From positions 1 to 42,542 of the IMG/VR virus record IMGVR_UViG_3300008450_009256: DNA of 42,542 bases, one strand, 5' to 3'. Of this stretch, positions 8,947 to 40,111 are shown piece after piece. The stretch's first letter is position 1. Every line of letters begins with the position of its first letter. Made by a program: the position numbers and the translations under genes. This DNA is from a virus. The notes beneath the pieces are model-generated. The model searched no databases, was not told the DNA's origin, and worked only from the letters and a program-made list of their open reading frames with translations.

Positions 8947-9529
8947 TGGATGCCTCCTTTTCTTCGTCCGGCATCACCGGCTGCAGCACGTCCCGCTGCG
9001 CGTAGCTCGCGCCGGAGGGCATCCAGCCGCGGTTGCGCTTGTCGGCGGCCAGCAGCGCGAACGCTTCACCCACCGGCGTGCTGCGCGCGTCGGTGCGCGA
9101 CATGCGGAGCTGCGCGATGAGTGCGGCGTAGATGGGCAGCCAGTCGCCGAAGCCACCGGAGAGGCTCATCGTGCCACCGCCATCGTCGCACGGCGGATTC
9201 ATCGGCAGCGACATCCCGAAGGCGGCGTCGATCGCATCGCGCATCATCACGCCCAGGCCCACGGCTTCCTCGGCGGAGAGATCCACCGGGCCGCAGGCAA
9301 AGGCATCCACCGCGTCGCTGATTTGCTCCGCCGTTTCGGGGAGCCTTCCCTCGATCAGCGGCGAAGAGCACGCATCGAGATCGATCCACGTCTGCATCGT
9401 GAAGACCAAGGCCCCCGCGCCCGGCGTGGCAAATGCACGCGCGATGCAGCGAGGCTGCCACGCACTTTGCTCCACCGCGGCAAGGTCCGCCGCGAGCGAG
9501 CGCAGTTGCTGTTCTTGGGCCTCAGTCAT
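8939..9529 (-). CDS. Putative tail assembly chaperone position protein
   Basis: A 196-aa protein between tail tube and tape measure, the usual place of the tail assembly chaperone. It is acidic in its N-terminal two thirds and contains ...MSLPMNPPCDDGGGTMSL and a C-terminal segment ending EEKEASNG. I see no programmed-frameshift site, so a G/GT-type arrangement is not supported. It overlaps the tape measure start by 8 bases. Its leader (9530-9566) is a heptamer tandem repeat that lies immediately before the ATG. Function is inferred from position. Confidence 0.5.
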   Translation of the reverse strand: MTEAQEQQLRSLAADLAAVEQSAWQPRCIARAFATPGAGALVFTMQTWIDLDACSSPLIEGRLPETAEQISDAVDAFACGPVDLSAEEAVGLGVMMRDAIDAAFGMSLPMNPPCDDGGGTMSLSGGFGDWLPIYAALIAQLRMSRTDARSTPVGEAFALLAADKRNRGWMPSGASYAQRDVLQPVMPDEEKEASNG

Positions 9530-9566
9530 TGGACGTTGGACGTTGGGCGTTGGGCGTTGGGCGTTG
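9530..9566 (-). repeat. B-type heptamer tandem repeat, leader of chaperone-position gene
   Basis: GGACGTT, GGACGTT, GGGCGTT, GGGCGTT, GGGCGTT with period 7 (plus strand). In the transcript it is CAACGCCCAACGCCCAACGC and touches the ATG at 9529. Confidence 0.9.
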
Positions 9567-9570
9567 CCGC

Positions 9571-10332
9571 TTAGTCGGTGTATGGCGGGATCCAGCTCGC
9601 GGAGATGGCGAACATCTTTCCGCGCGAATCTTCGAGCGTTTGCTCGCAGTCGGTGATCCGGTAGTCGCTCGCGTGTCCCGGTGCGCCGCCGATCGTCAGC
9701 ACGTCAGTCGGCGCGAGCGCGTCGCCGGTGGCCAGCAGCAAGAGCCGGATCATCCGCTCATACGCGTGCCCCTGCGCGCCGAGCAGCTTGCCGTCCGGCG
9801 AAGGCTCGTCATCGGTGAGCTGGAGGATCTGTTCGATCGTCAGCTCATGCACGATGCCTTCGGCGTGCGTGAGGCCGTGCGTCGAGTAGGTGAGCAGCCC
9901 GGCGGGGAACACGATGCCGATGCCATCCTGCGCCGGGGTGAACACGCTCAGCGTCGCCGCGGCGGCGGCCGTGTTCGTGCTCGGCATGTCCGGGTAGTGC
10001 GTGGCGGAGATGCTCGCGGTCTTCGGCTGCATGAGCCGCCACGTCTCGACCGCGCGGCTCACGAGCACCTGCCCGCCCGATACGCCGTCCACGGTGATGG
10101 CGCATCCGTCGCTGATGTCGAGGAAGTCCGTCGAGCCGCTCGTGATCTTCGCGGTGAACTGGATCGCGGCCTTCCGCGAGTGGAGCACCTGGGCGATGTT
10201 GTCGCCCGCGGCGCCGGTGATGTTCTGCTTGGTCACGCCGTCGCGGTAGCTGTAGCTCTGGCGTTCGCCGGTGAAGAGGGCGGGCGCGGAGAGCGGGCCC
10301 CAGATGATTGTTTGTCCGTAGCGGTTGCTCAT
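9571..10332 (-). CDS. Putative tail tube / major tail protein
   Basis: A 253-aa protein. Residues about 45-115 contain a beta-rich block (QFTAKITSGSTDFLDISDG ... VLVSRAVETWRLMQPKTASI) of a kind I associate with phage tail tube or tube-like proteins; the C-terminal part returns to beta strands with DYRITDCEQTLEDSRGK. Position between tail terminator and tape measure genes agrees. The gene is flanked upstream by a 70-base spacer containing an A-type heptamer array directly before the ATG and a hairpin at 10384-10418, and downstream by a B-type heptamer array, which may set its expression apart from neighbours. A baseplate protein is an alternative. Confidence 0.5.
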   Translation of the reverse strand: MSNRYGQTIIWGPLSAPALFTGERQSYSYRDGVTKQNITGAAGDNIAQVLHSRKAAIQFTAKITSGSTDFLDISDGCAITVDGVSGGQVLVSRAVETWRLMQPKTASISATHYPDMPSTNTAAAAATLSVFTPAQDGIGIVFPAGLLTYSTHGLTHAEGIVHELTIEQILQLTDDEPSPDGKLLGAQGHAYERMIRLLLLATGDALAPTDVLTIGGAPGHASDYRITDCEQTLEDSRGKMFAISASWIPPYTD

Positions 10333-10379
10333 GGTGAGTGGTGATTAGTGACTGGTGACTGGTGAGTGGTGACTGGTGG
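10333..10379 (-). repeat. A-type heptamer tandem repeat, leader of tail tube gene
   Basis: GGTGAGT, GGTGATT, AGTGACT, GGTGACT, GGTGAGT, GGTGACT with period 7 (plus strand), directly upstream of the ATG at 10332 on the minus strand. The sense strand is CA-rich. Confidence 0.9.
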
Positions 10380-11433: not shown

Positions 11434-13926
11434 TTAGGGATAGTTGGAATACTTCCACTTGCGCACGCAGGTGCTCGTCATCACACGGTTGGTGCCGTCG
11501 TAACAAACGGCCGCAAATACGCCGAGTTGGGGCGACCATGTGATACCTGCCCAACTGTTCGCAGCGGCTGCACTGCGCGAAGTCCAAGTGATGCCGTCGG
11601 GCGAAGTCATCACCCGGTTGGTGCCAGATTCGGAGATGGCGCAAAAGATACCGAGTTCGGACGACCACGTGACGGCTACCCAACTGTTCGCGGCGGCTGC
11701 ACTGCGCGAAGTCCAAGTGATGCCGTCGGGCGAAGTCATCACCCGGTTGGTTCCGTCGCGCGACACAGCGCAGAATATACCGAGTTGGGGCGACCACGTG
11801 ACGGCTGTCCAAGTGTTCGCGGCGGCTGCGCTGCGCGAAGTCCAAGTGATGCCGTCGGGCGAAGTCATCACCAGGTTGGTGGCGGCGTCGCGCGCCACCG
11901 CGCAGAAGATGCCGAGTTCGGGCGACCACGTGACGGCTATCCAACTGTTCGCAGCGGATGCACTGCGGGCAGTCCAAGTGATGCTGTCGGGCGAAGTCAT
12001 CACCCGGTTGGTGCCGTCGCGCGCTACAATGCAGAAGATGCCGAGTTGGGGCGACCATGTGACGCCCCCCCAAGTGTTCGTTTCTGGCGTGCTGCGGGCG
12101 GTCCAAGTGATGCCGTCGGGCGAAGTCATCACCCGGTTGGCGCCGCTGAAGGCCACGGCGACAAACAAACCGCGCTCAGGCGACCACGCAATGTCATCCC
12201 AACTGCCAGAAGGGGTGCTGCGGGCAGTCCAAGTGATGCCGTCGGGCGAAGTCATCACCCGGTTGGTTCCATCTATAGCAACCGCACAAAGCAGCCCAAG
12301 CTCGGGCGCCCAGGCGATGCCTGCCCAGCTATTAGCTTCGGATGCACTGCGGGCAGTCCAAGTTGCGACGGCGCGGGTGGCTGCGCTGGCGAGGATTTGC
12401 CCACCCGTGGCCCCCGTGGCCCCCGTGGCACCCGTGGCACCCGTGGCCCCCGTGGCCCCCGTGGCCCCCGTGGCACCCGTGGCACCCTGCGGGCCTGTGA
12501 TGTTCAGCGCGAACGTCCACCCGCTCTCGTCGCGGTGGTAGAAGTTGCCATTGTTCAGATCGACGTAGCCATTGCCCTCCGAGCCGATGAGATTGGTCGG
12601 CGCTCCGTAGCCGCTGAGAAAGTCCACGGTGTCGCCGATGCCCTTGTAGCCAGCCGCATTCCCTAGTTCTTCGACATCGGTGACGAGGAATGTGCCGGGG
12701 GGCAGGCCGTCGTAGTCGGCTTGCGTGACGGCATACTCTGTCCACTCTGGGGGCACGCCTCCGCCTGGGGAGTTTTCGCGCAGCGCCCACGTTCCATCGC
12801 CGTTGTAGCCACCGGATGTGGGCAACAAGCCGAGCGTGCTGCTCGTGATGGTGACCACGTTGCCCGCTGCGCTGGCGGTGCAAGTCAATCCGCCGGAGTT
12901 GATCGCAGATGAGAGAGCAGACGCGGCGTCCTCTTTAGTCGCCCCGGCATTACCGAGCGAGCACCATGCGGTCGCGTTGTTCTCGTCGGTCAAGCCCAGC
13001 TCGTAATAGGTCGCGTTCGCTCCCTCCTGCGTGACCGCGAGCGTGGCGTCGGCCTGATTGTCGAGGCCGCCCGCATCGAGAGCCCATGCGCTGCCGAGTG
13101 CGCCGGGGCTGGAGCTGGTGATGGTGACCACCGCGCCGGTCGCGGTGGCGGTGCAATTCAGGCCAGCACCCGTGATGGCAGCCGCAAGCGCCGTGGCCGC
13201 GTCCGCAGCGGTCGCGCCGGCCGTGCCGAAGTCCACGAGTGCCTGCGAGGAATACTCGTCGCGGAAGGCGATGCCGTAACCGCCCGCGTCGGAAGGCACC
13301 GAAGCATTGAACGTGACGGTGGCGATGCGAGTCGCGAGCGTGGCGAGGATGTCGTCCGGGAAGGTGACGGTGGCGACACGGGGCAGCGAGTCGCCGCTTT
13401 GCGCAATGATGTCGCCGAGCTTCCAGCCCTCATGGTCGGCGGTGTAGCGGTTTGGCACGCTGCGGCGCACGATGCGCGCGAGCAGCAGCGCATCCACTTC
13501 GGCTTCGGTGTAGTAGTGCGGGCCGCTCTGGCTGTTCGGGTCGGAGGGGATGACGCGCGATTGCACCGGCACGGTGAAGGACGGCGCGACCTGCATCTCG
13601 CCGGCCACCGTCCACGCGACTTCGCAGCCCATGTTCACGGTGCCCTTGCCCGCCATGAATGCGACCAGGCGCTCGTCGTTTGCGTCGAGCACGCCGGTGA
13701 AAGTGTGAGTGTTCTCGGCATCGAACTCGTCGAGATACGCCTTGAGCACAGGCGGCGTGGCATCGGTGCCGAGGCCCAGCTCAAATGCGGGCGATGCGCC
13801 GGGCGAGGTCGGGGTCGCACCGCGCGTCGTGGTGATCGTCACCGGCACGCTGGCTCCGGCTTTGATCGTGATGGCGCTCGCGAGCTTCGCGAGGCCGGTG
13901 TCGAGATCGAGGGTGATGTTCAGCAT
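11434..13926 (-). CDS. Fibre with collagen-like stalk and seven-repeat propeller
   Basis: An 830-aa protein starting at ATG 13924-13926 (the upstream stop is at 13929; earlier codons are antiphase). Order: N-terminal attachment module (about 1-130); two tandem alpha/beta repeats (about 190-400) each with ...AAITGAGLNCTATATGAVV-type motifs; a linker with GPQGATGATGATGATG-type collagen-like triplets (about 500-530); then seven repeats of about 43 residues with consensus SW..(I/V)(A/T)WSP.LG.FCAVA.DGTNRVMTSPDGITWT(A/S)RS. Seven short beta-repeats of this kind usually close into a seven-bladed propeller, often a glycan-binding head. Role: host recognition. It is encoded between head-completion and tail genes rather than at the operon end, so a head fibre is possible. 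Confidence 0.75.
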   Translation of the reverse strand: MLNITLDLDTGLAKLASAITIKAGASVPVTITTTRGATPTSPGASPAFELGLGTDATPPVLKAYLDEFDAENTHTFTGVLDANDERLVAFMAGKGTVNMGCEVAWTVAGEMQVAPSFTVPVQSRVIPSDPNSQSGPHYYTEAEVDALLLARIVRRSVPNRYTADHEGWKLGDIIAQSGDSLPRVATVTFPDDILATLATRIATVTFNASVPSDAGGYGIAFRDEYSSQALVDFGTAGATAADAATALAAAITGAGLNCTATATGAVVTITSSSPGALGSAWALDAGGLDNQADATLAVTQEGANATYYELGLTDENNATAWCSLGNAGATKEDAASALSSAINSGGLTCTASAAGNVVTITSSTLGLLPTSGGYNGDGTWALRENSPGGGVPPEWTEYAVTQADYDGLPPGTFLVTDVEELGNAAGYKGIGDTVDFLSGYGAPTNLIGSEGNGYVDLNNGNFYHRDESGWTFALNITGPQGATGATGATGATGATGATGATGATGATGGQILASAATRAVATWTARSASEANSWAGIAWAPELGLLCAVAIDGTNRVMTSPDGITWTARSTPSGSWDDIAWSPERGLFVAVAFSGANRVMTSPDGITWTARSTPETNTWGGVTWSPQLGIFCIVARDGTNRVMTSPDSITWTARSASAANSWIAVTWSPELGIFCAVARDAATNLVMTSPDGITWTSRSAAAANTWTAVTWSPQLGIFCAVSRDGTNRVMTSPDGITWTSRSAAAANSWVAVTWSSELGIFCAISESGTNRVMTSPDGITWTSRSAAAANSWAGITWSPQLGVFAAVCYDGTNRVMTSTCVRKWKYSNYP
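11455..12365 (-). repeat. Seven ~129-bp direct repeats inside the fibre gene
   Basis: The propeller repeats are also repeated as DNA. The core GTGATGCCGTCGGGCGAAGT (plus-strand reading) begins at 11588, 11717, 11846, 11978 (with one change), 12107 and 12233, spaced 126-132 bp, with a diverged seventh unit ending near 12365. Spacing is always a multiple of three, so unit gain or loss would preserve the frame. Similarity is strongest around the MTSPDGITWT coding part. Confidence 0.9.
12405..12490 (-). repeat. Collagen-like triplet repeat in fibre gene
   Basis: Consecutive 9-bp units reading (plus strand) GTGGCCCCC or GTGGCACCC encode Gly-Ala-Thr triplets on the minus strand. Near-identical tandem units of this kind are prone to slippage in multiples of three residues. 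They form the stalk between the N-terminal part and the propeller. Confidence 0.85.
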
Positions 13927-13928
13927 GG

Positions 13929-14516
13929 TCAGTTGAGCGCGGTGCGCAGGTAATTCTTGGCGCCGTCCGCGGCGGCGCGTTCCCATTGCGCCTCGCTCGG
14001 CAGGAGCGCGCGGTTTTGCGGCTGCGTGACGCTGCGGCGGAGCAGCCACATCACCTTGATCTGGTTGCCCTGGCGCATGGCGATGAAGCCCTTGCCCTTC
14101 GGAATGAAGAGGCCCAGCTCGGCCCAGCAGTCGCGCGGGGAGCGGCCCACGGCGAGGCGGTCCATCGGGATGGCGAGCGCCTTGGCGTTCACGGGCACGA
14201 CGGTGATCGTGCGGAATGCGCGGCCCACGCCGGGCCAGTTCAGCGTGAGCGTCGCGGCATTGCCGTCGCTTGCGAGCGCGGCGGGAGATTCGGTGCGCTC
14301 GGCGGCGTGCTTGTAGAAGTTCGTCGGCGCGGCTCCGAGCTTGGAGAGCAAAGAATCCGGTGAACGCTCCAGCGCGCCGACGTGCGACGCGGTGACTTGC
14401 TGCACTTCCGTGCCCATCGCAGCGTGCAAATCAATCCGGCCCTGGCCGTCGAGCCCGCGCACGAGTTTCGCGATGGCTCCCTGCGGGTCGTAGCTGAAGG
14501 AGACGTGGACGTTCAT
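13929..14516 (-). CDS. Virion morphogenesis protein (gpG / head-tail joining-like)
   Basis: A 195-aa protein. N-terminus MNVHVSFSYDPQGAIAKL leads into a helix, then a central beta region (AATLTLNWPGVGRAF) and a C-terminal basic helix with ALLPSEAQWERAAADGAKNY. This helix-strand-helix layout, the length and the position directly after the F-like minor head protein match the Mu G / HK97 gp10-like group of head-tail joining or tail-completion proteins. It overlaps the F-like gene by 4 bases (ATGA at 14513-14516). Assignment is by context and pattern; no catalytic role is expected. Confidence 0.5.
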   Translation of the reverse strand: MNVHVSFSYDPQGAIAKLVRGLDGQGRIDLHAAMGTEVQQVTASHVGALERSPDSLLSKLGAAPTNFYKHAAERTESPAALASDGNAATLTLNWPGVGRAFRTITVVPVNAKALAIPMDRLAVGRSPRDCWAELGLFIPKGKGFIAMRQGNQIKVMWLLRRSVTQPQNRALLPSEAQWERAAADGAKNYLRTALN

Positions 14517-16362: not shown

Positions 16363-16369
16363 CGGGAAG

Positions 16370-16402
16370 GTGATTGGTGACTAGTGACTGGTGATTGGTG
16401 GG
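16370..16402 (-). repeat. A-type heptamer tandem repeat, leader of gp36-like gene
   Basis: Plus-strand units TGATTGG, TGACTAG, TGACTGG, TGATTGG repeat with period 7. In the minus-strand transcript the array is CA-rich (CCAATCACCAGTCACTAGTC) and lies just before the start codon at 16362. Confidence 0.85.
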
Positions 16403-18207: not shown

Positions 18208-18212
18208 GGTCG

Positions 18213-18242
18213 TGATTGGTGACTGGTGATTGGTGACTGGTT
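18213..18242 (-). repeat. A-type heptamer tandem repeat, leader of decoration gene
   Basis: Plus-strand units TGATTGG, TGACTGG, TGATTGG, TGACTGG with period 7, a few bases upstream of the ATG at 18207 on the minus strand. The sense strand is CA-rich. Confidence 0.85.
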
Positions 18243-24402: not shown

Positions 24403-24438
24403 TGGACGTTGGGCGTTGGGCGTTGGGCGTTGGACGTT
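24403..24438 (-). repeat. B-type heptamer tandem repeat, leader of small terminase
   Basis: Plus-strand units GGACGTT, GGGCGTT, GGGCGTT, GGGCGTT, GGACGTT with period 7. In the minus-strand transcript this reads CAACGCCCAACGCCCAACGT and ends 4 bases before the ATG at 24398. Confidence 0.9.
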
Positions 24439-24444
24439 GCGGGT

Positions 24445-27222: not shown

Positions 27223-27296
27223 GCTCCCGATGGCCCGCAGAATTGCAGCGCGGTGAGGGGACTTAGAGGGCGGAAATGAGCGGGGATTGCTGCCAG
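27206..27296 (-). promoter_or_regulatory. Presumed late-operon promoter region
   Basis: This 91-bp spacer lies between the end of the repressor operon and the first gene of the 27-kb late operon, so a late promoter is expected here. I see no convincing -35/-10 pair, which would fit a promoter that needs an activator. Inference from position only. Confidence 0.3.
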
Positions 27297-27851
27297 TCAC
27301 TTCTCACCAGTCACCGCGGGGGAATGTGACTGGTGACTGGTGAAAGGTGACTGGTGTTCAGCGCCGCTTCGCCTCGCGTTTGCGCGCCTCGTCGCCGCTT
27401 TGATCGCGGCACGTCCCGCATGAGCCCTTGCCCGTCTTCGGGTGGCAATACTTGCACGCGCTGCAATCCCGGCACACCGGGCACGGATCCTTGCCCGTGC
27501 AGCGCCGCCCGCTCCCCGGCCCGCCCGCGCTGCATAGCGCGTGCAGTGCGAGGGAAACGAGGATGCAGAGGGTGCGGTGCATTCCTGGGATGCCGGAGGA
27601 AGCCCGCGCAACTTGCGCTGCGCCTCATCGCGGAGCTTGATCAGGTCCATTTCCCGCAGGTGATTGTCGTAATTGTAAACGCCGAGCATTCCTCCCCAGA
27701 GGATGACCCACACGATGATGAATGGCCTCTTGCTCCGGCAAAAGAACCAGGCAATCAATCCAGCGATGATTCCCGTGACGACGGCAGCGCCTGCAAGATC
27801 GGCTTCGCCATCGTGGATGACGGTTACGGCTGCTAGTGCTATTGCGATCAT
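27297..27851 (-). CDS. Membrane protein; C-terminal half doubtful
   Basis: A 184-codon frame whose ATG overlaps the stop of the RHH gene (27848-27851). Residues 1-65 look real: AGAAVVTGIIAGLIAWFF and RPFIIVWVILWGGMLGVYN are two membrane segments, followed by a charged helix (REMDLIKLRDEAQRKLRG). Beyond residue ~90 the sequence is Arg/Ala-rich low complexity, lies antiphase to the Cys-rich ORF at 27358-27582, and ends in heptamer-encoded HQSPFTSHQSHSP. Either two genes overlap, or the membrane protein once stopped earlier. The membrane part may act in superinfection exclusion or lysis control; this is a guess from its place in the repressor operon. Confidence 0.5.
   Translation of the reverse strand: MIAIALAAVTVIHDGEADLAGAAVVTGIIAGLIAWFFCRSKRPFIIVWVILWGGMLGVYNYDNHLREMDLIKLRDEAQRKLRGLPPASQECTAPSASSFPSHCTRYAARAGRGAGGAARARIRARCAGIAARASIATRRRARAHAGRAAIKAATRRANARRSGAEHQSPFTSHQSHSPAVTGEK
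27304..27336. terminator. Hairpin built from opposed A-type heptamers
   Basis: TCACCAGTCAC (27304-27314) and GTGACTGGTGA (27326-27336) pair over 11 bp with an 11-base loop. Further heptamer units flank both arms (27293-27357). It lies just downstream of the Cys-rich ORF and may end the repressor operon before the late operon. Confidence 0.5.
27358..27582 (-). CDS. Small Cys-rich protein with signal peptide, nested ORF
   Basis: A 74-aa ORF in a different frame inside the distal half of the 27297-27851 frame. MHRTLCILVSLALHALCSAG is signal-like. Eight cysteines follow, in DPCPVCRDCSACKYCHPKTG and KGSCGTCRDQ, a CxxCxxCxxC-type array suggesting disulfides or metal binding. It ends REAKRR. The Cys spacing looks selected, whereas the overlapping frame is low complexity, so this is more likely the real product of this stretch. 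Nested signal-bearing ORFs recall spanin pairs, but the lipobox is poor. Confidence 0.5.
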   Translation of the reverse strand: MHRTLCILVSLALHALCSAGGPGSGRRCTGKDPCPVCRDCSACKYCHPKTGKGSCGTCRDQSGDEARKREAKRR

Positions 27852-28180
27852 GGGCGTGGTTTCTTGCGTGGTTTTTTTGCGGCGGAGTAAGTGACGGGTT
27901 TGTGCGGGAGTTTGCCGGTCGCAGATTTGCCGGGCGTCTCCGCTGCGCGCAGCGCCTGAATCTGCTGCTGCGCGTAGGTGCGGCCGTCGAGGCCGTGCAT
28001 GATTGATTCCCAGTCGTGCGGCAGCGCGGAAAACCCGCCTTGCTCGAACTTGTCGAGGAAGGTGCGCAGCAGAAATTTCGCGAGCGCCGAGCGGTTTGTG
28101 CCCATGCGTTTCGCTGCGTGGTCGAGGCGCGGCAACTCGCTTTTTGCGAGGCGTAGCATGACGGGCGTGGAATCGGACAT
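27848..28180 (-). CDS. RHH-type repressor candidate (leftward)
   Basis: A 110-aa protein starting at ATG 28178-28180. Residues 1-45 fit a ribbon-helix-helix domain: strand TPVMLRLAKSEL, helix PRLDHAAKRMG, turn, helix NRSALAKFLLRTFLDKF. A C-terminal tail of about 60 residues is basic (AAKKPRKKPRP). It faces a second RHH gene across a 71-bp region with a 19-bp palindrome. The place between late and early operons corresponds to the Mu c/ner switch, so this is the best candidate for the prophage repressor. Its putative -10 (TACAAT in sense, 28186-28191) lies only 5 bases before the ATG, predicting an almost leaderless mRNA. Confidence 0.65.
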   Translation of the reverse strand: MSDSTPVMLRLAKSELPRLDHAAKRMGTNRSALAKFLLRTFLDKFEQGGFSALPHDWESIMHGLDGRTYAQQQIQALRAAETPGKSATGKLPHKPVTYSAAKKPRKKPRP

Positions 28181-28251
28181 GAGCGATTGTAATGCACTCA
28201 GAAAAAAACTTCTACTTTTTCTTTGACAGCTTTTGTAATGCAGTGCATTAC
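28181..28251. promoter_or_regulatory. Divergent switch region with 19-bp palindromic operator
   Basis: TGTAATGCAGTGCATTACA (28234-28252) is a perfect 9+1+9 palindrome that reaches into the ATG of the rightward RHH gene. The half site TGTAATGCA recurs at 28188-28196, 46 bp away, over the leftward -10. Rightward promoter: TTGACA (28223-28228), 17 bp, CATTAC (28246-28251). Leftward: TACAAT (antisense of 28186-28191), no clear -35. Binding at these sites would block both promoters. Confidence 0.65.
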
Positions 28252-28440
28252 ATGAGCACGATGAAACTGAAACGACCAAAGACCACGCCGATGATGGTGC
28301 GGCTGGAAGACGAACTGGAGGCGCGTCTTCGCCGAGCGGCGAAGACGATGGGCTCGAACAAATCTGCGGTGTTCCGCTTCGCGCTGCTCAATGAGCTTCC
28401 GCGGATCGAGCGCGGCCAAATCAACATCCCCGCACTATGA
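28252..28440 (+). CDS. RHH-type early regulator (rightward)
   Basis: A 62-aa protein, first gene of the early operon. Strand KTTPMMVRLEDELEARL, helix RRAAKTMGS, helix NKSAVFRFALLNEL form a ribbon-helix-helix domain similar in order to the divergent gene product, suggesting an ancient duplication. By position it equals Mu Ner/lambda Cro. Start choice: ATG at 28252 lies inside the operator; a second ATG at 28261 would be closer to the expected transcription start (~28258), so the mRNA could be nearly leaderless. The stop overlaps the next ATG. Confidence 0.65.
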   Translation: MSTMKLKRPKTTPMMVRLEDELEARLRRAAKTMGSNKSAVFRFALLNELPRIERGQINIPAL

Positions 28441-28688
28441 CGCTCGAAGAAATCGAATGCTCGGATGCGCGGTGCAACGCGGCGGCGGGCCAAATGCGTT
28501 CTCTTTGCCTCGACTCCGAACTTCCGGGAACGGTGCTCCACCGAGTCACCGCGATCATGCGGGAGCTTGCAGAGCTGCGTGGCTACTTCGCGGCACTGGC
28601 GGATGTCGCCCGCGCTGATGATCTGAAGGTGAAGCCGCGCCGCGATTATCGGCGCGACGCAAAAGCAAAGCTGGAGGCCGCACGATGA
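28437..28688 (+). CDS. Hypothetical early protein
   Basis: An 83-aa helical protein starting with an ATGA overlap with the RHH gene. Helix VLHRVTAIMRELAELRGYFA and an Arg/Lys-rich C-terminus (KVKPRRDYRRDAKAKLEAAR) are the visible features; the basic tail could bind nucleic acid. The N-terminus has three Cys residues (CSDARC...CLDS) without a recognisable metal site. No family was recognised. It overlaps the next gene by 4 bases. Confidence 0.55.
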   Translation: MTLEEIECSDARCNAAAGQMRSLCLDSELPGTVLHRVTAIMRELAELRGYFAALADVARADDLKVKPRRDYRRDAKAKLEAAR

Positions 28689-28891: not shown

Positions 28892-29439
28892 GCGCGACGC
28901 AACTGCCGGATCTTCGGGAGCTGATGGAAGACGTGCGCATTCACACTGTCTCGCTGCGTGCGAAGTGCCAAGAGCTGGAGGCCGCGCTGCTGGCGGACCT
29001 CGCGGCTGGCGAGGCGGCGTGGGCCGAGTTGGAGAATGAGCGGGATGCGGCCTTGGCGCGGATCGCAGAGCTGGAAGCCAGTCACCAGTCACCAGTCACC
29101 AATCACATCGGCGACGCCGGCGTGAACACGCAGAGCGCGGAGGATCGCGAATACAATTCCTACCTCGATTGGACGTGCGAGCACGGGCTGCCGGCGCTGA
29201 GCATCGAGCAGTGGCGCGAGGTGGAGACGAGCGTGGCGTCGCAGGATGCGGCGCGCGGGCTGCACGCGGACTTCGACCTGTATCGCGAGGGGAATGGCGA
29301 GCAGGGATTTCCCGCGGTGCCGCTGGAGAAATTCACGGCGGGCTGGCTGCGCATCAAGCACGGCGGGCTGTCGCCTGCGCAGGCGCGCGAGCTGATGGCC
29401 GAGATCGAGAGCGAGCACTTTTGCCGCACGGCACTTTGA
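28888..29439 (+). CDS. Hypothetical early protein with heptamer-encoded insert
   Basis: A 183-aa protein. Residues 1-63 form a charged helix or coiled coil (ELMEDVRIHTVSLRAKCQEL to ARIAELEA). Residues about 64-71 (SHQSPVTNH) are encoded by an A-type heptamer array, read through in frame. The C-terminal 110 residues form a separate acidic domain (EYNSYLDWTCEHGLPALS, AGWLRIKHGGLSPAQARELM). No family was recognised. The heptamer insertion looks like a linker gained between two existing parts. Confidence 0.5.
   Translation: MSATQLPDLRELMEDVRIHTVSLRAKCQELEAALLADLAAGEAAWAELENERDAALARIAELEASHQSPVTNHIGDAGVNTQSAEDREYNSYLDWTCEHGLPALSIEQWREVETSVASQDAARGLHADFDLYREGNGEQGFPAVPLEKFTAGWLRIKHGGLSPAQARELMAEIESEHFCRTAL
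29077..29106 (+). repeat. A-type heptamer tandem repeat within a coding region
   Basis: Four units of CCAGTCA/CCAATCA with period 7 are read in frame as SHQSPVTNH. The sense strand is the CA-rich one, the same orientation bias as in the leader copies. Confidence 0.85.
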
Positions 29440-30821: not shown

Positions 30822-31301
30822 ATGAGCCTGAACTACGAAGAACCCGCAGTCACCACCCCGCTGCACGAGCATCTCGCGCAGGCTCCGGCGCAGCGCGAGA
30901 TGAGCTTTGAGACGCAATCCGAAGCAAGCCCGGCGAAGACGCTGCGCGTGCGCGAGGATGCCGCCAGGCTGGAGGGGCTGTTGCGCACCGCGTGGATCGG
31001 CGGGATGCCGTGGATGAGCGCGGCGCAGATCGGCGGGCGGCTCGGATGGAATGAGCGCCGTGTGCGCGACGCGGCGAGCGAAAGCCTCGCCATCGCAAGC
31101 GGTCCCGGCTCGCCCGGCTACGCGCTCGCGGAGGCCGCGACGCCCGAGGCGCTCATGCACATCGGCAACGCGATGAAGTCGCAGGGCGAGCGCATGTTTG
31201 CCCGAGGCCAGCGATTCGTGACGGCAGCGCTGCTGCGCACGAAGGCCGCGGAAATCACCGCACCAGTCACCAGTCACCAGTCACCAGTCACCTCCCTCTG
31301 A
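30822..31301 (+). CDS. Winged-helix-like DNA-binding protein
   Basis: A 159-aa protein. The central part (about 47-90: EGLLRTAWIGGMPWMSAAQI, GGRLGWNERRVRDAASES) fits a winged helix with an IGGRLGWNERRVRDA recognition element, followed by a wing-like GPGSPGYALAEAAT. The last residues (PVTSHQSPVTSL) are encoded by a heptamer array which at the same time forms the leader of the next gene. Position in the early operon suggests replication or transposition control. The stop overlaps the next ATG (TGATG). Confidence 0.55.
   Translation: MSLNYEEPAVTTPLHEHLAQAPAQREMSFETQSEASPAKTLRVREDAARLEGLLRTAWIGGMPWMSAAQIGGRLGWNERRVRDAASESLAIASGPGSPGYALAEAATPEALMHIGNAMKSQGERMFARGQRFVTAALLRTKAAEITAPVTSHQSPVTSL
31261..31292 (+). 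repeat. A-type heptamer tandem repeat before HTH gene
   Basis: More than four units of CACCAGT with period 7, ending 8 bases before the ATG at 31301. It encodes the C-terminus of the preceding protein and serves as leader for the next. The CA-rich strand is in sense. Confidence 0.9.
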
Positions 31302-32569: not shown

Positions 32570-34717
32570 ATGAACGAAGCCATCACCACCACTGACGCCG
32601 GGGCCGAAGATGCCGCCCTCGTGCCGCAGACCCGCGCGGAGAGCTGGCCTTTCATGGCGGACCCGGACTTTGCCGGCGAGAAGCCGGGGGCGCAGGCGGA
32701 GGTGCGGTATTGGTGGCCGATCATGGAGGCACTGCACGCGGCGACGAACAAGCGCGAGGCGATCGCGGCGCTGGCGCGGGCGAATCACCAGAGCATCTAC
32801 ATGGTCAAGCGAATGTATTACGGGATGCCGCACAAGGCCGGATGGATGAAGACGGGGCACTTCAGCTCGCTCATCAATCGCGGGAAGTATCCCGACCCGC
32901 GGGATGCGTCGCTGCCCTCGGCCTTTGCGGATTTCCTCTGCACCCGGCACGATGCGAACCAGCGGGCGCTCGTGGGCAAGCGCGCGATTGATGCGGTGAT
33001 GGCCGCGCTCGCGGCGTGGGAGCGCGAGCCGGGCAATCCCGATCTCGCCATCCCCGGCTTTACCGCGCCGCCGAGGCGCAACGCGATCACCGGGCACCCG
33101 GATGGATGGAGCGAGGATTCCCTCTACCGCATCCTGCGCAAGCACAGCAATGCGTACACGAAGTCGCTGCGCAAACAGGGGAGCAAATTTGCGAGCATCT
33201 ATCTGCCGAAGGTCCACAGCACGCGGGCGGAAATGTATTTCGGCGAGGTGCTCTACTTCGACGATTTCGTGATTGACAACTACGTGAACCTCACCGGGCG
33301 GAACTCGCAGGCGATGCGGCCGCTCGGCTTCGGCTGCATGGAGTCGCTCACGGGAAGCATCTTGGAAATGGGCTTCAAGCCCGAGCTGGAGAAGCGCGGC
33401 GCGGACGGCTCGGTGAACGGCAAGCGGCAACTGAACCAGGATGATTTCTTCTGGTTCGTGATGTGGAATCTCAACCGGCACGGATACAGCCCGAAGGGCA
33501 CGGCGCTCGTCTTTGAGTGGGCGACAGCGAACGTGGACAAGCGCGACCGCGAGACGCACGAGGATCACTTCGACAATCTCATCCGCAAGGTGACGGGCAA
33601 CTGTGTGCGAGTGGAGCGCAGCGGCCGGTTCCGCAATCCGGCGTTCCGCGACATGCTCTTTGGCAGCAGCGGCTCGGGCAACTTCCGGTTCAAGGCGATG
33701 CTCGAAAGCTACTGGAATCTGTTCAAACAATACGCGGGCTTCCTCGCCGCGCCGAGCGGGCGCAACCCGGACTTTGCGCCGGAAGAAAACCACGGCCTCG
33801 TGGCCTACAATGACCGAATGCTGAAGGCGATCGACCGCCTGCCGCGCGAGCGCTTCCTGGAGCTGCGCCGGCCCGTGTGGGAGTGGGAGCAGATGCGGTG
33901 GGCGCTCCAGCTCATCACGGAGATCGTGGACCACAGCCCGGACCATTCGCTTGAAGGCTGGGAGAAGCTGCAATTCCGCAAGCAGAGCTACCGGCTCGAC
34001 ACCGCGAGCGATGTGTGGATGAGCGAGGATGCCTACCTGACGCTGCCGGACAGCCAGCGCGCGATCTACGATCACATCGTGAGGCAGCCGGGCTATTTCC
34101 AAAGCCGCCGCCTCTCGCGGCGCGAAGCCCGTGAGAAGATGGCGAAGGAGCAGCCGCTGCGCTCGCTGCCCTCCTTCCTCATCCCGCAACTCGCGCCGCC
34201 GCGCATGTGGAAGCCGTGCAGCGTGCGGCAGGATCTTGAGATCCATCTCGATGCGGCAAACGAGGAGGAGTTTGTGGATACCGACACGATGATCTTCCTC
34301 GGCAAGGTGCGCAACTCGCACGGGCACGAGATCAACCTGGAGCGCGGGCGGAAATACTTCCGGCTGCTGAACGTCTTCGACCCCACGCAGCTCTGGATTG
34401 CCGAGGCGGACGGCTCGCAGCGCGGGCGATTCATCGGCCTTGCACAGCGTGTGCAGATGGGCGGCAAGTTCGATGCAGAGAAGACGCTCGCGCAGCTCGG
34501 GGCCGTTCACCACATCCAGACCGTCGAGAGCGCCACAGTGCGCGCCCGCGTGACGGCGAGCGCCGTGGATGCCCGGCTGGCGATGAAGGAACACAACGCC
34601 CATGTGTTCGACGGCACGACGCCATCCGACCGCGCGGAGTCGCGCCGAGCCGACACCCGCCGCGAGAGCGCGCTGGATCGCATGGCCGCTGCGCACGGCG
34701 CCGACGATGAGGACTGA
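32570..34717 (+). CDS. MuA-like DDE transposase
   Basis: A 715-aa transposase that would bind phage ends, cut and join them to target DNA. N-terminal ~200 residues hold Mu-type DNA-binding parts (ANHQSIYMVKRMYYGMPH). Catalytic core: EVLYFDDFVIDNYVNLTG with D231/D232; second acidic site GTALVFEWATANVD with E316, where most DDE enzymes have D; third GNFRFKAMLESYWNLFKQ with E379. The ...NPAFRDMLFG...GSGNFRFKA...ESYWNLF run is the family hallmark. The rest (about 430-600) includes the beta-barrel and the C-terminal part that in MuA contacts MuB. The stop overlaps a possible ATG (34717) as TGATG. Length is close to MuA (663 aa). Confidence 0.85.
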   Translation: MNEAITTTDAGAEDAALVPQTRAESWPFMADPDFAGEKPGAQAEVRYWWPIMEALHAATNKREAIAALARANHQSIYMVKRMYYGMPHKAGWMKTGHFSSLINRGKYPDPRDASLPSAFADFLCTRHDANQRALVGKRAIDAVMAALAAWEREPGNPDLAIPGFTAPPRRNAITGHPDGWSEDSLYRILRKHSNAYTKSLRKQGSKFASIYLPKVHSTRAEMYFGEVLYFDDFVIDNYVNLTGRNSQAMRPLGFGCMESLTGSILEMGFKPELEKRGADGSVNGKRQLNQDDFFWFVMWNLNRHGYSPKGTALVFEWATANVDKRDRETHEDHFDNLIRKVTGNCVRVERSGRFRNPAFRDMLFGSSGSGNFRFKAMLESYWNLFKQYAGFLAAPSGRNPDFAPEENHGLVAYNDRMLKAIDRLPRERFLELRRPVWEWEQMRWALQLITEIVDHSPDHSLEGWEKLQFRKQSYRLDTASDVWMSEDAYLTLPDSQRAIYDHIVRQPGYFQSRRLSRREAREKMAKEQPLRSLPSFLIPQLAPPRMWKPCSVRQDLEIHLDAANEEEFVDTDTMIFLGKVRNSHGHEINLERGRKYFRLLNVFDPTQLWIAEADGSQRGRFIGLAQRVQMGGKFDAEKTLAQLGAVHHIQTVESATVRARVTASAVDARLAMKEHNAHVFDGTTPSDRAESRRADTRRESALDRMAAAHGADDED

Positions 34718-34742
34718 TGCTTTCCCCAAACACCCAAACCCT

Positions 34743-34772
34743 GCCGCGTGAGGGCAACGCCCTTTTACGCGG
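34743..34772. repeat. Interspersed palindrome, copy 3 (between transposase and ATPase genes)
   Basis: GCCGCGTGAGGGCAACGCCC followed by TTTTACGCGG folds as a nested hairpin (CCGCGT/ACGCGG outside, GGGC/GCCC inside). It is flanked on both sides by copies of CCCAAACACCCAAACCCTG-like CA-rich sequence (34725-34743 and 34780-34799). Confidence 0.65.
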
Positions 34773-34800
34773 ACCCAAACCCAAACACCCAAACCCTGAA

Positions 34801-35790
34801 ATGAAGAACGAACCCGAAGACCCCACGCAGCGCGACGAAGACAAAAAGCTGATCGCGCGGCTGGCTGAATTGCAGATCCGGCTCGGCGATCCGAGTGACG
34901 CGAAATTCTCGAAGCGCTGGCTGGCCGGCGCACACGCGACCACCTGGCTGCGGCTGAAGGATGGCACCTACGCCGCGGAAGACTGGACGCCGATCATGAA
35001 GCGCGTCGCCCTCGCCGTTCACGCGGTGGAGCAGTTCCTCGAAACGGCGACGCTGCACGGCGGGCTGCTCAAGCTCTCGCATGTGAACTCGGCAATCACC
35101 GCGTGCCGCACGGCCGTGAAGCAACTGCGCGACCGGCTCGTGGTGGTGCTCATGCCGAGCGGCGGCGGGAAGACAAGCATCGTGCCGCTGCTGCGGCTGG
35201 AATTCCCCGAGGGCGTCGTGGCGTGCGAGGCCACGGAGACGTGGCGCGATAGCTACCTCGCGGCGCTCATGGGCATCGCCGAAGAACTCAAGCTCGAAGT
35301 GAAAGGCACCTCGGCACGCGTGGTGGAAAGCGCGGTGCTCACCGAGCTGAAGGAACGGCCCCGCAAGCTCGTGATTGATGAGGCACACTACCTCGGCCAG
35401 CCGACGCTGAACCTCGTGAAGGCGATCCTGAACAAGACGATGAGCATCGTGATCCTGCTCGCGATTCCCGAGCTGTGGAAAAGGATCTCCGCGAAGGCAT
35501 CGCCGGAACTCGCGCAGCTCCGCGCGCGGACGTGCTCGCGGATCGAGGCGAAGGAAATGGATTCGGGCGATCTGGAAATCTTCCTCGCCGCGCGCATCCT
35601 GCGCTGGGAGGAGATGCCGCCGGAGGCGCGCAAGGCCGCGAAGTCCGCGGTGCGCGCCGAGGGCGAAAAGCTCGGCATGTGGGACACGGCATTCCAGATG
35701 TCGTCGCTCGTGAACAGCAGCTCCGAGGGCAAGGTACCCGCCGTGGAAGACTTCACCGAGGCCGCGAAGGACATCGCGGTGATCCGATGA
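34801..35790 (+). CDS. MuB-like AAA ATPase, target selector
   Basis: A 329-aa protein; the ATG at 34801 is preferred over 34717 because codons between them are the CA-rich leader and palindrome copy 3. Walker A MPSGGGKTS (about 118-126) and Walker B KLVIDEAHYL (about 189-198), followed by a sensor-1-like ILLAIPELW. This matches MuB/TnsC-type AAA ATPases, which bind target DNA non-specifically, activate the transposase and give target immunity. It follows the transposase as B follows A in Mu. Length is close to MuB (312 aa). Confidence 0.85.
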   Translation: MKNEPEDPTQRDEDKKLIARLAELQIRLGDPSDAKFSKRWLAGAHATTWLRLKDGTYAAEDWTPIMKRVALAVHAVEQFLETATLHGGLLKLSHVNSAITACRTAVKQLRDRLVVVLMPSGGGKTSIVPLLRLEFPEGVVACEATETWRDSYLAALMGIAEELKLEVKGTSARVVESAVLTELKERPRKLVIDEAHYLGQPTLNLVKAILNKTMSIVILLAIPELWKRISAKASPELAQLRARTCSRIEAKEMDSGDLEIFLAARILRWEEMPPEARKAAKSAVRAEGEKLGMWDTAFQMSSLVNSSSEGKVPAVEDFTEAAKDIAVIR

Positions 35791-35954: not shown

Positions 35955-36336
35955 CACCGCCACGCCGCCGACGCTCGTGCAACGGCTCGACGCGATGCTC
36001 GCGGGCATCCGCGCGGACGAGGCGCTGCGGCGCGTGCTGGCGAATCCGCACCGGGTAAATCCGATGCTAGCGGCGGCAATGGGCGGCGACGCGCGGACGA
36101 TCGCGGAGCTGCGCGCCGCGAACGGCGAGCTGGCCCGCGAGGTGGTCGCGCTGAAGGAGGAGCTGTGGAAGGCGTGCCGCACGAATGCGGCGCTGGCCAG
36201 CGACCTAGCGTGGCTGATGGGCGACGGGCTGTGGCAGGAGCGGCTCGGCGCGGACGACCAGCCGCGCGACGGCTACCAATTCGCGAGCGAGGAACTGCGG
36301 GCAGGATTGCCCGCGTTACAAGAAGGAGGCGCGTGA
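35944..36336 (+). CDS. Hypothetical early protein with coiled coil
   Basis: A 130-aa protein. Residues 8-30 (TLVQRLDAMLAGIRADEALR) and a coiled coil (IAELRAANGELAREVVALKE, ELWKACR) precede a C-terminal part with WLMGDGLWQERLGADDQPRD. No family was recognised. The 3' end carries a clear Shine-Dalgarno (AGAAGGAGG, 36321-36329) for the following gene, which starts within its stop codon (TGATG). Confidence 0.5.
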   Translation: MSADTATPPTLVQRLDAMLAGIRADEALRRVLANPHRVNPMLAAAMGGDARTIAELRAANGELAREVVALKEELWKACRTNAALASDLAWLMGDGLWQERLGADDQPRDGYQFASEELRAGLPALQEGGA

Positions 36337-37097
36337 TGAACGCCTCCGTAAACATCATCGAGCGGATCAAGAAGCTGCTGCGGCTCGGGGCGGATGCGCG
36401 CGGGAATGCGCACGAGGCGGAGCGCGCGATGGCGTTGGCCTTTGAACTCGCGGAGAAGCATCGCGTGGATGTGGAGAGCCTGAGCCTGGACGATGAGACG
36501 GCGCGCGCGGTGCATGAGCGCTGGCACATGGGGCGGAGGTTCGACCGCGTGCGGCGCGGGGTGTTCGGGCTGCTGCAGAAGTTCTTCCATGTGACGGTGT
36601 GCGTGAGCGGCGCGGAGATGATCGTGGTCGGGCGGGCGCAGGATGTGACGATCGCGCGGTATGTGCATGATTTCCTCCTGCGGGCCGCGCGCGAGTGTCT
36701 GCGCGCCTGGGAGGCCGCGGAGAAGGCGGAGCGCCGCCGCGTGACGCTGAACAAGCGGAGCAACTACATCACCGGGTTTTTCTGGGGCGTGAGCAGCAAG
36801 CTGCACAAGAGCCGCGAGGCGATGCCACTGACAGACAAGCAGGGTGCGCTGGTGGTCGCAGAGAAGGCGGAACGCGATGCGGTGATGGACGGCCTCGCGC
36901 CGGGCCGCAAGACGCTGCCGGCGCTGGAGGCGCGTCGGCACCTGGGCGCGCTGTGCTCGGGCCTGCGCGATGGCGAGAAGACGAACATCCACACCCCGCT
37001 CGGCGCGACGCCAGGCGCGCAGCTCGCGCTGGTAAAAGCGGCCATCGGCGGGAACGATGAAATCCAGCAACCGGCGGGGGAGGCGCGCCGCTCGTGA
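36336..37097 (+). CDS. DUF2786-like phage protein
   Basis: A 253-aa protein with a strong Shine-Dalgarno 7 bases before the ATG at 36336, rare in this phage. N-terminus IIERIKKLLRLGADARGNAH then EAERAMALAFELAEKHRVDV is the DUF2786 signature (K-I-x-x-L-L-x-L-A ... N-x-x-E-A-x-x-A). The following part (FGLLQKFFHVTVCVSGAEMI, VHDFLLRAARECLRAWEAAE) fits the associated DUF7168-type domain. Such proteins are common in the early region of Mu-like phages; their function is not established. It is the last gene before the hairpin at 37120-37145. Confidence 0.7.
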   Translation: MNASVNIIERIKKLLRLGADARGNAHEAERAMALAFELAEKHRVDVESLSLDDETARAVHERWHMGRRFDRVRRGVFGLLQKFFHVTVCVSGAEMIVVGRAQDVTIARYVHDFLLRAARECLRAWEAAEKAERRRVTLNKRSNYITGFFWGVSSKLHKSREAMPLTDKQGALVVAEKAERDAVMDGLAPGRKTLPALEARRHLGALCSGLRDGEKTNIHTPLGATPGAQLALVKAAIGGNDEIQQPAGEARRS

Positions 37098-37896: not shown

Positions 37897-38169
37897 ATGA
37901 ACACCGAACAAATCGAAGCCCGAAAAGAATACCGTGAGTGCCGCCGGACGCTGAGCACTGAACCCGTCGCCGTCGCCTATTCGCTGCTTCTGGAAGCGCG
38001 CGAATGGCGGCGACTCATGCGGATCGCTGCGGCGCGCGGCGACTCGATGGAAGCAATGGAACGCCGCTGGCACGCGCAGGAATGCTATCGCCACGCGTGG
38101 GACTTGACGCGCGATCGGAAAGGCGGCGCGTGCCTGCTGAAAAAAAACGGAGCGAGAATGGCACCATGA
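37897..38169 (+). CDS. Hypothetical protein, first gene of second early operon
   Basis: A 90-aa, mostly helical protein: MNTEQIEARKEYRECRRTLS, then VAYSLLLEAREWRRLMRIAA and a basic C-terminus (DRKGGACLLKKNGARM). The expected transcription start coincides with the ATG. A remnant C-type heptamer (CTGAGCACTGAAC, 37953-37965) is read in frame. The stop overlaps the XRE gene start. It may be a partner of the XRE protein, but no toxin fold is evident. Confidence 0.5.
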   Translation: MNTEQIEARKEYRECRRTLSTEPVAVAYSLLLEAREWRRLMRIAAARGDSMEAMERRWHAQECYRHAWDLTRDRKGGACLLKKNGARMAP

Positions 38170-38432
38170 CCGGCGCACGCTACAAGACCCTGCGGCTGAT
38201 GCTCGGCACGCAAAACGAAGTGGCCGAAAGGCTCGGCGTTCATCGTGTGACCATCGCAAAACGCGAGGCTGGAACCATCCCGATTACCACTGAGGCGGCG
38301 CTTGCAATACTGGCCCTTCCAAAACACGTCGCGGAGCGGAAGAAAGTGGCGGCGGTGGGGGCGAAACGCTCGTGCCCGAAGCGCAAAAAATACAACGAAT
38401 CAAGCTCTGCGACGCGCGAGGAAAGGCCATGA
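38166..38432 (+). CDS. XRE/Cro-like regulator
   Basis: An 88-aa protein. Residues 4-50 hold a Cro/cI-type HTH: YKTLRLMLGTQNEVAERLGV followed by HRVTIAKREAGTIPITTEAA. The C-terminal ~35 residues are basic (KRSCPKRKKYNESSSATREE). It likely autoregulates this operon through the palindrome at 37871-37889. Overlaps of 4 bases with both neighbours place it in one transcript with the recombinase and nucleotidyltransferase genes, so it may control them. Confidence 0.7.
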   Translation: MTGARYKTLRLMLGTQNEVAERLGVHRVTIAKREAGTIPITTEAALAILALPKHVAERKKVAAVGAKRSCPKRKKYNESSSATREERP

Positions 38433-38825: not shown

Positions 38826-39125
38826 ATGAACACACCCGAAAACCCAAATCCAACCGGCGGCACCGAAGCAAGCAAACCAGTGACGCCACCCATCGACCCG
38901 CCGCGTTCTGGCGAGGAAATCGTTTGCTGCATCGGCTTGTTCGAGAGCTTGGCGAAGATCGCCGAGCGGAGTGCCGTGTCCTGCCGCGTGAGCAGCGGGA
39001 GCAATCCCGACTACTCAATCGCGTTCTGGACCGCTGGCATCGTGTTGGACGGAATCACAGCGGAGCTTCGAGCGGAGATAGAAAAGCTCTCGAACAGTAA
39101 ATTCAACGAACGGGAGTCTGCCTAA
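38826..39125 (+). CDS. Hypothetical protein upstream of recombinase
   Basis: A 99-aa protein: Pro/Thr-rich N-terminus (NTPENPNPTGGTEASKPVTP), then a globular helical part (IVCCIGLFESLAKIAERSAV, AELRAEIEKLSNSKFN). Leader CGAACCACAAACCAC is CA-rich. The stop TAA overlaps the recombinase ATG (TAATG), so both are translated together. It could be a directionality or accessory factor, but no HTH is visible. Confidence 0.5.
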   Translation: MNTPENPNPTGGTEASKPVTPPIDPPRSGEEIVCCIGLFESLAKIAERSAVSCRVSSGSNPDYSIAFWTAGIVLDGITAELRAEIEKLSNSKFNERESA

Positions 39126-40111
39126 TGTCACTGCGCGCGATGTTTGAGGAGGCGGCGGATTTTGTGGGCCTCGCCGAGCGTTCACGGGAGACGTATTGGA
39201 GCTGGACCGGGACTTTTTTCCGGGCAGTGAAGAAGCCGGCGAGGGAGTGGCGTGGGGCGGATTGGGAATTTTTCGAGCGGTGGCTGATGGCTCAGCGACC
39301 GGCCTATTCGGTGGCGGCGCGCAAGCAGGCGCGGTCGGCGGTGAATTTCATTTTCCGGCATGTGCTGAAGCTGGAGGTGGGGCGGCTGGAGTTGCCTCAT
39401 CTGCCGAAGCCGGAACCGGCGCTGGTGGTGGTGCCGACGCGTGAGGAGTTGGTGCGGCTGTTCGCGGGCCTGCGCGGGCAGGATTGGCTGGCTTGTCGGA
39501 TCATGCACGGGTCGGGCACGCGGGTGGAGGAGACGTGCAGGATTCGCGTGCAGGATGTGGACATCGAGAAGGCTCGGCTGCGCGTGTGGGATGGCAAAGG
39601 GGAGAAGAATCGCGTGACGGTGCTGCCGGTGAATTTGCTGCCAGCTCTGAAGCGTCAGATCGACTGGCGCAAGGCGGTGCATGAGCGTGATGTGGCGGAG
39701 GGAAACGGCTTTGTGGAGCTGCCAGGCCGAGTTGGGCGGAAGTGGAGGGGTGCGGCGCGTGCGCTGGGATGGCAGTGGCTGCTGGCGTCCGGCGATGTGG
39801 TGAAGCAGCATCGGTGGTATCACTCGCCGGGGTGTGTGCAGCGGGCGCTGAAGTGCGCGCGCGAGGCCGCGGGGATCGTGAAGCGGATCGTGCCTCATTC
39901 GCTGCGCAAGGTGTTTGCGAGCGAGCTTCAGCAGGCGGGGATGCCGGCGCGGGAGATTCAGGGGCTGCTGGGGCACGCGGATCTGAATACGACGGCGACG
40001 CATTATCTGGAGGCGAATGCGGAGGGTGCTTTTTCTCCGGCGGATGTGCCCGCGGCGGCTTTGCAACGGCCCTGGGCGATTGAGCGTAAGGAGGCGCTGC
40101 GGCTGCGATGA
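39125..40111 (+). CDS. Tyrosine recombinase of the integron-integrase (IntI-like) type
   Basis: A 328-aa tyrosine recombinase. N-terminal SAM-like core-binding domain (about 1-95). Catalytic set: R133 (GSGTRVEETCRIRVQDVD), K158 region (GKGEKNRVTVLP), H258-x-x-R261 (VPHSLRKVF), H284 (LLGHADLNTT) and Y294 (THYLE). Between the K motif and HxxR lies FVELPGRVGRKWRGAARALG then WQWLLAS and ...CVQRALKCAREAAGI, which aligns with the IntI1 stretch [24 protein letters not shown]...FQRAFKRAVEQAGI, including the integron-specific extra helix. Xer and lambda integrases lack this insert. The nucleophile is one residue later after H284 than in IntI1. Length matches IntI (320-340). It follows a phage gene with TAATG overlap and overlaps the next gene by 4 bases. 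Confidence 0.85.
   Translation: MSLRAMFEEAADFVGLAERSRETYWSWTGTFFRAVKKPAREWRGADWEFFERWLMAQRPAYSVAARKQARSAVNFIFRHVLKLEVGRLELPHLPKPEPALVVVPTREELVRLFAGLRGQDWLACRIMHGSGTRVEETCRIRVQDVDIEKARLRVWDGKGEKNRVTVLPVNLLPALKRQIDWRKAVHERDVAEGNGFVELPGRVGRKWRGAARALGWQWLLASGDVVKQHRWYHSPGCVQRALKCAREAAGIVKRIVPHSLRKVFASELQQAGMPAREIQGLLGHADLNTTATHYLEANAEGAFSPADVPAAALQRPWAIERKEALRLR

Follow-up and report, generated by a model that had tools for sequence, protein, structure and literature searches.

Paired ribbon-helix-helix proteins at the probable lysogeny switch of a transposable phage

The proteins that make up phage lysogeny switches are usually of the helix-turn-helix (HTH) type. The CI and Cro proteins of lambda are divergently encoded HTH repressors that act on common operators, CI carrying an S24 domain, and the c and ner genes of Mu are likewise divergent. 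In P22, Mnt and Arc are expressed from divergent promoters, and their operators are distinct. The P22 immI region is described as encoding these two small ribbon-helix-helix (RHH) repressors, of about 40% homology and associated with lysogenic versus lytic phase, and as a secondary immunity region that controls the antirepressor, the primary repressor c2 being separate (PMC7549136); a second account likewise assigns a pair of RHH repressors to the immunity region of P22 (PMC8022706). For the transposable hankyphage, a CI-like HTH master repressor, RepC-HP, is reported to occupy the place that c has in Mu (PMC12135933). Elsewhere, an Arc-type RHH protein of phage SPbeta, YosL, has been tied to the management of lysis and lysogeny (PMC10516654), and in the RHH protein AmrZ three alternating strand residues are described as contacting bases (PMC3325190).

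The locus studied here belongs to a transposable (Mu-type) phage, represented by one IMG/VR virus record of 42,542 bases that was analysed whole and is called the window below (G000 in comparisons). The Mu-type hallmark, a MuA-type transposase together with a MuB-type ATPase, is present in it by PHROG matches (Table 1). Genes left of ~28,180 run leftward, including those for portal, head protease and amidase, and those right of 28,252 run rightward. Lysis and structural genes are located in the left arm and the transposase and ATPase in the right arm. A spacer of 71-80 bp is the only point of divergence between structural and transposition functions. A Mu-like protease match (PF10123) reaches 22.1 bits, under its cut-off of 25.2, and PHROG 328, head maturation protease, matches with E 6e-8. 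P0001 is encoded by the gene that opens the structural arm and P0002 by the one that opens the transposition arm, and we propose that this pair is probably the lysogeny (immunity) switch of the phage, two paralogous RHH repressors replacing the usual HTH pair.

Table 1. Features of the window at and around the divergence of the two arms.
Feature	Position	Strand	Basis
Left (structural-arm) RHH protein P0001, 110 aa, C-terminal extension and basic tail	27848..28180	-	RHH-like; similarity to P0002; model
Right (transposition-arm) RHH protein P0002, 62 aa from ATG 28252 or 59 aa from ATG 28261	28252..28440	+	RHH_1; model
Candidate operator palindrome TGTAATGCAGTGCATTACA on the early-gene side, its two GTAATGC half-sites spaced by 10 bp	28234..28252	.	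Exact match
Single half-site TGTAATGCACT (11 bp), adjoining the start of the left gene	28188..28198	+	Exact match
-35-like TTGACA, rightward putative promoter	28223..28228	+	Consensus match only
-10-like TACAAT, leftward putative promoter, overlapping the half-site	28186..28191	-	Read from sequence; 5/6 consensus; -35 partner poor
Next left-arm gene, hydrophobic N-terminus by eye	27297..27851	-	4-nt overlap with left RHH gene
Transposase (MuA-type role), right arm	32570..34717	+	PHROG 310 E 8.8e-5, partial; relatives
ATPase, DNA transposition protein (MuB-type role)	34717..35790	+	AAA_22 E 9e-10; PHROG 296 E 1.6e-13

The window holds several other features of note. A tyrosine integrase (39125-40111, + strand; Phage_integrase E 2e-26), with a relative 44% identical in record G003, coexists with the transposase and transposition ATPase, and the right arm also encodes a DUF2786/DUF7168 protein (36165-37097, + strand; PHROG 421 E 1.6e-31). 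The product of the next left-arm gene has an N-terminus resembling that of L053:12310-13143. Arrays of a 7-bp unit (CCAGTCA or CCAATCA) lie at 10332-10378, 16369-16400, 18212-18241, 27293-27356, 29078-29106 and 31261-31292, the unit being observed 23 times against 0.86 matches expected. In either arm they follow the direction of transcription, a portion of the array at 27.3 kb being the exception, and their 10-base core is missing from 116 of 118 loci, including every locus of the closest relative, G003; they resemble short heptad repeats that certain bacterial genomes contain. Further heptad arrays occur at 9529-9566 and 24403-24439, where TTGGGCG and TGGGCGT are one unit in different phase, and a leftward open reading frame (11434-14049) contains an imperfect 129-bp tandem repeat at 11477-12267 (5.8 copies, 82% match).

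That both divergent genes encode RHH proteins had been put forward in a preliminary description of this DNA, and several lines of evidence now bear this out. P0002 passes the Pfam RHH_1 cut-off (21.6 bits against 20.5); P0001 stays below it at 14.4 bits, and no HTH family exceeds its own cut-off with either protein (HTH_28 scores 12.0 bits against 25 for P0001). The two proteins are paralogues, 42% identical over 48 residues by sequence comparison (E 3e-10 for the pair). AlphaFold models, computed from a 12-row alignment, show in each an extended N-terminal segment and then two helices, the RHH-like order, at residues 15-26 and 30-52 in P0001 (mean pLDDT 76.0) and 20-33 and 37-53 in P0002 (90.7). 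DSSP assigns no strand in either monomer model, as is expected when the dimer partner is absent. Most of the leading Foldseek chains belong to RHH proteins (CopG, Arc, PutA, AmrZ and antitoxins), with no match at E <= 0.001; P0002 aligns with CopG 1b01 at a TM score of 0.84 of the target, and VIA-align 2 ranks for it PutA (Z 6.6), CopASO (6.3), AmrZ (6.0) and CopG (6.0). An RHH fold for both is supported by the family profile, by their likeness to each other, by the models and by the PDB chains that they match.

A relative with the same divergent pair, L002 (IMGVR_UViG_3300006102_000005), confirms that both genes are coding, as dN/dS is below 1 in each (~0.27/1.13 for the left gene, ~0.13/1.08 for the right); the L002 orthologue of P0001 is 66% identical. 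In L002 the first start position of the right gene is TTG and ATG is found only at the second, so the gene in the window may begin at 28261 instead of 28252, and the overlap of the palindrome with the true ATG is accordingly uncertain. This bears on the earlier proposal that a perfect palindrome covers the rightward -10 and the ATG: the palindrome is present and perfect, but the -10 assigned to TTGACA (CATTAC) agrees with consensus at only 3/6 positions and the overlap with the start codon is in doubt. The second site proposed, a half-site over the leftward -10, is found 46 bp left of the palindrome and over TACAAT. A sigma-70 scan of 27800-28500 returned no promoter above threshold, so both promoter positions are deduced from TTGACA and TACAAT.

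The palindrome has no second site within three mismatches in the window, nor did any of 100 shuffles yield one. Perfect palindromes with 9-bp arms number three in the whole window and zero to five in each of 30 shuffles, and at that scale the claim of rarity for the palindrome was dropped; it was kept for the 80-bp spacer, where such a palindrome arose in 24 of 20,000 shuffles. The 11-bp word shared by the two sides of the spacer was equalled in 0.2% of shuffles (n=500). At L002 the sites occupy the same places as the palindrome and half-site, with a different sequence that has changed in step.

Relatives of the pair are sparse by direct search. P0001 or P0002 alone recovered at most one viral relative, L002 (found with P0002), and none in phages; a profile of the left protein added L004 (IMGVR_UViG_3300044971_003862), two scans of genome contigs found no relative, and the plasmid matches of P0003 are weak (E at least 0.01) and fall on RHH proteins, some of which adjoin replication genes. 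An alignment of a head protein was more productive, leading to 37 loci in 37 records, two of them already known, which with the window make 38 (G000-G037). Among 35 of these records the window's RHH families, A5 and A6, have no clear relatives: at E <= 0.05 A5 matches none and A6 two (G029, E 2.5e-4; G015, weak, E 0.006). Yet the closest structural relative, G003, whose head protein is 71% identical and whose structural genes are collinear, holds in the syntenic place a divergent RHH pair of another subfamily, missed by both families and found by reading. A local profile from that pair led to G029, and G025 was found from an RHH_1 match, two weak local matches and reading of the syntenic place. 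An all-against-all test for divergent similar open reading frames gave z > 10 only in the window, G001 and G002; high raw scores elsewhere came from low-complexity frames with z < 7 and were set aside.

In 6/38 records (G000, G001, G002, G003, G029 and G025), a divergent RHH pair thus stands where the structural arm meets the transposition arm. In 11 others (G004, G005, G008, G010, G011, G016, G020, G021, G023, G030 and G036) the same slot holds an HTH protein on the structural-arm strand, as judged from transposase and ATPase positions and HTH_3 matches, with the caveats that HTH_3 is below the Pfam cut-off in G036 and that G005 has no transposase match and a weak ATPase match. The remaining 21 are fragments or unclassified, G019 among the latter because its frame is not convincing. 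The slot proteins of G004, G005 and G020 join HTH to Peptidase_S24 (LexA/CI-type), as classical phage repressors do. Six early-side partners of HTH slots, compared with family libraries, gave five weak HTH or repressor matches and none over a Pfam cut-off, that of G004 having PHROG matches only (best a repressor family, E 0.0056). RHH and HTH occur together in no slot. HTH proteins, which the preliminary description had called usual in Mu-like phages, fill the slot in these 11 relatives; five further relatives have, like the window, an RHH pair there.

Since the slot is filled by HTH repressors in 11 relatives, three of them S24-type, a lysogeny switch is the best reading of the RHH pair, as the preliminary description had suggested, and the slot is the chief argument for it. 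The layout is of the switch type, with divergent putative repressor genes at the arm boundary and words in common, the domain being RHH where HTH would be looked for. We consider it unlikely, though deserving of attention, that the pair instead times early and late expression, balancing the divergent arms during lytic growth while an HTH protein at 38.2 kb controls lysogeny. Every structural gene follows on the strand of the left RHH gene, which in the window, G001, G002 and G003 shares 4 nt with the gene that comes next in the left arm, and as the left gene is thus co-directional with the lysis and structural arm it may regulate late genes instead. The window moreover encodes, near the integrase, a protein (38004-38432, + strand) whose HTH_3 match at 38208-38315 exceeds the Pfam cut-off with 30.2 bits, and because of this extra protein, the chief caveat to the argument from the slot, the RHH pair falls short of a proven master switch. 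It has no divergent partner, however, the other five RHH records contain no HTH_3 match anywhere, and the 11 relatives combine the same slot and left-arm orientation with HTH repressors. The 38.2-kb protein is possibly a second regulator.

The preliminary description had named the comparison of spacers among relatives as a way to examine its shared operator. At all six RHH loci matched operator-like words lie beside both start codons, and the word differs from phage to phage. The spacers of the window and L002 can be aligned throughout, with the -35-like TTGACAGCTTTTGTA conserved. All three half-sites of the window read GTAATGC and all three of L002 GTATATC or GTATAGC; over the same step the strand residues go from PMMVR/PVMLR to PIPVR/PIPIR, so that the central strand position changes from Met to Pro in both proteins while the half-sites change from GTAATGC to GTATA(T/G)C. 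The more distant L004 has PIPVR in both proteins and GTATATC at all three sites. In G025 both proteins carry FIGxWI, and the spacer contains an inverted repeat, exact over 11 bp, GTTTAACACCC/GGGTGTTAAAC; the words of G029 are TTATACACC/GGTGTATAA, and those of G003 are GTATAA with a 10-bp period, a 10-bp repeat marking the early-side sites of G000-G003. A -35-like element precedes the early-side sites by 6-12 nt (start to start) at all six loci.

Words shared between left and right sides sum to 53 over the six spacers against a permutation mean of 38, a value reached by 2 of 720 assignments with kinship ignored. Individually, four of the six spacers beat their shuffles at p <= 0.02 (G000 0.002, G002 0.01, G029 0.02, G025 0/500), G001 (0.114) and G003 (0.562) not being significant alone. 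As a control, HTH-slot spacers gave a shared word at p <= 0.05 in 2/9 (G011 and G036); these are nine of the 11, G016 and G020 being omitted as their predicted starts overlap.

The proteins follow the same pattern. Three DNA-facing positions were set by analogy with AmrZ Lys18/Val20/Arg22, on an alignment of AmrZ to P0001 that we assume to be correct, and the facing residues (structural/early protein) are PMR/PMR in G000, PPR/PPR in both G001 and G002, VAS/LAK in G003, QAA/MAW in G029 and FGW/FGW in G025. Partners agree at 14 of 18 positions against 5.2 when re-paired, which 4 of 720 assignments reach with kinship ignored; matched identity in the helices is 65 against 52.8 re-paired (10/720), and two five-locus subsets give 2/120 for the strand. 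These permutation tests cover six loci, of which G000-G002 form one group. Strand identity is 0.57 with the partner against 0.21 with same-role proteins of other phages, while for the helices the values are 0.32 and 0.30. In the window and G001 the helices are closer to the orthologue (0.69 and 0.80) than to the partner (0.40 and 0.37), and the strand is closer to the partner (0.71) than to the orthologue (0.57). G003 and G029 fit most poorly, one of three facing residues being common to the partners. Because within a phage the strand of one protein follows that of the other and the helices do not, both proteins of a pair most likely read the same sites; judged from sequence comparison, the shared operator of the preliminary description thus gains support, word and DNA-facing strand appearing to change together across the six loci.

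This pattern also weighs against a reading that we regard as improbable, namely that each protein represses only its own promoter, as in P22, where the operators of Arc and Mnt are distinct, the common half-sites being left from duplication. P22 offers a precedent, Arc and Mnt being described as about 40% similar with separate roles (PMC7549136), but residual ancestry would not produce a common word and strand that every phage has renewed even as its helices drifted apart. That the genes are RHH antitoxin or partition-type genes with no tie to a phage switch is scarcely credible: weak RelB-like and BrnA matches, far below cut-offs, and the many antitoxins among the Foldseek matches point that way, but no toxin gene is seen beside P0001 or P0002, for which reason antitoxin identity was rejected, and the divergent layout is conserved at the arm boundary in six phages.

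Taking the pair as a lysogeny switch, a mechanism can be outlined. Dimers of P0001 or of P0002 would read the same half-site through the same three strand residues (Pro-Met-Arg). The early promoter would have two such half-sites, spaced by one helical turn, and the left promoter a single one. Bearing an additional C-terminal part, P0001 would shut the early promoter in the prophage in the manner of c or Mnt; at the single half-site it would curb its own production. P0002, like ner, Cro or Arc, would be made first in lytic growth, damp both promoters and keep P0001 off. This is the most likely assignment of roles, in which we infer the promoter positions, the partner that maintains lysogeny, binding, and the competition for common sites or mixed dimers; the latter may occur as RHH dimers pair strand to strand. 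The C-terminal part is longer, with a basic tail, in five of the six left proteins, and could supply the asymmetry needed by two readers of one site. Given the 4-nt overlap, the region just downstream of the left gene would be expected to hold genes that the prophage expresses together with the repressor.

More speculatively, and with doubts that prevail for the present, there may be a class of transposable phages whose primary immunity depends on one recognition code kept identical in two proteins, strands and operators co-evolving while the rest drifts. Mixed dimers might then form, their ratio setting the decision, and each strand/operator pair would be an immunity type. If so, the loci would give a natural RHH code, Pro-Met-Arg for GTAATGC, Pro-Pro-Arg for GTATA(T/G)C and Phe-Gly-Trp for GGGTGTTAAAC.

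In 6/17 records with a readable slot, the unrelated RHH fold takes the place that HTH proteins otherwise fill, and the two opposing putative repressors keep one DNA-reading strand in common. The loci supply several natural strand/operator pairs for the RHH recognition code, which is poorly known, and offer a model, open to test, for the joint evolution of repressor, counter-repressor and operator towards new immunity types.

The nearest known system is P22 Arc/Mnt. The window resembles immI in having two paralogous RHH proteins on divergent strands, and differs in that its pair lies at the primary switch position and apparently has one half-site for both, the same word being found on both sides of the spacer where P22 has separate operators. 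PF03374 (ANT), the one antirepressor domain sought, occurs in none of the six RHH records. Among the literature matches listed, which are no proof of absence, we found no divergent RHH pair serving as primary switch of a transposable phage with a co-evolving operator. As in Mu c/ner and hankyphage RepC, the putative repressor heads the genes of a transposable phage, but those are HTH systems, and in the window the structural arm starts from the repressor side and points away from the switch. Two divergent putative repressors with common operators recall lambda CI/Cro, which are again HTH proteins, whereas no Peptidase_S24 domain is present in any of the six RHH records. With AmrZ, CopG and Arc the window proteins share the RHH fold; those are single regulators, and here the strands are matched within a divergent pair. 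SPbeta YosL, too, is a single gene, in a phage with another master repressor (MrpR). An RHH pair in an immunity region is therefore known from P22, and what we rate as new is such a pair at the primary switch position with an operator that appears to be shared and to co-evolve with it.
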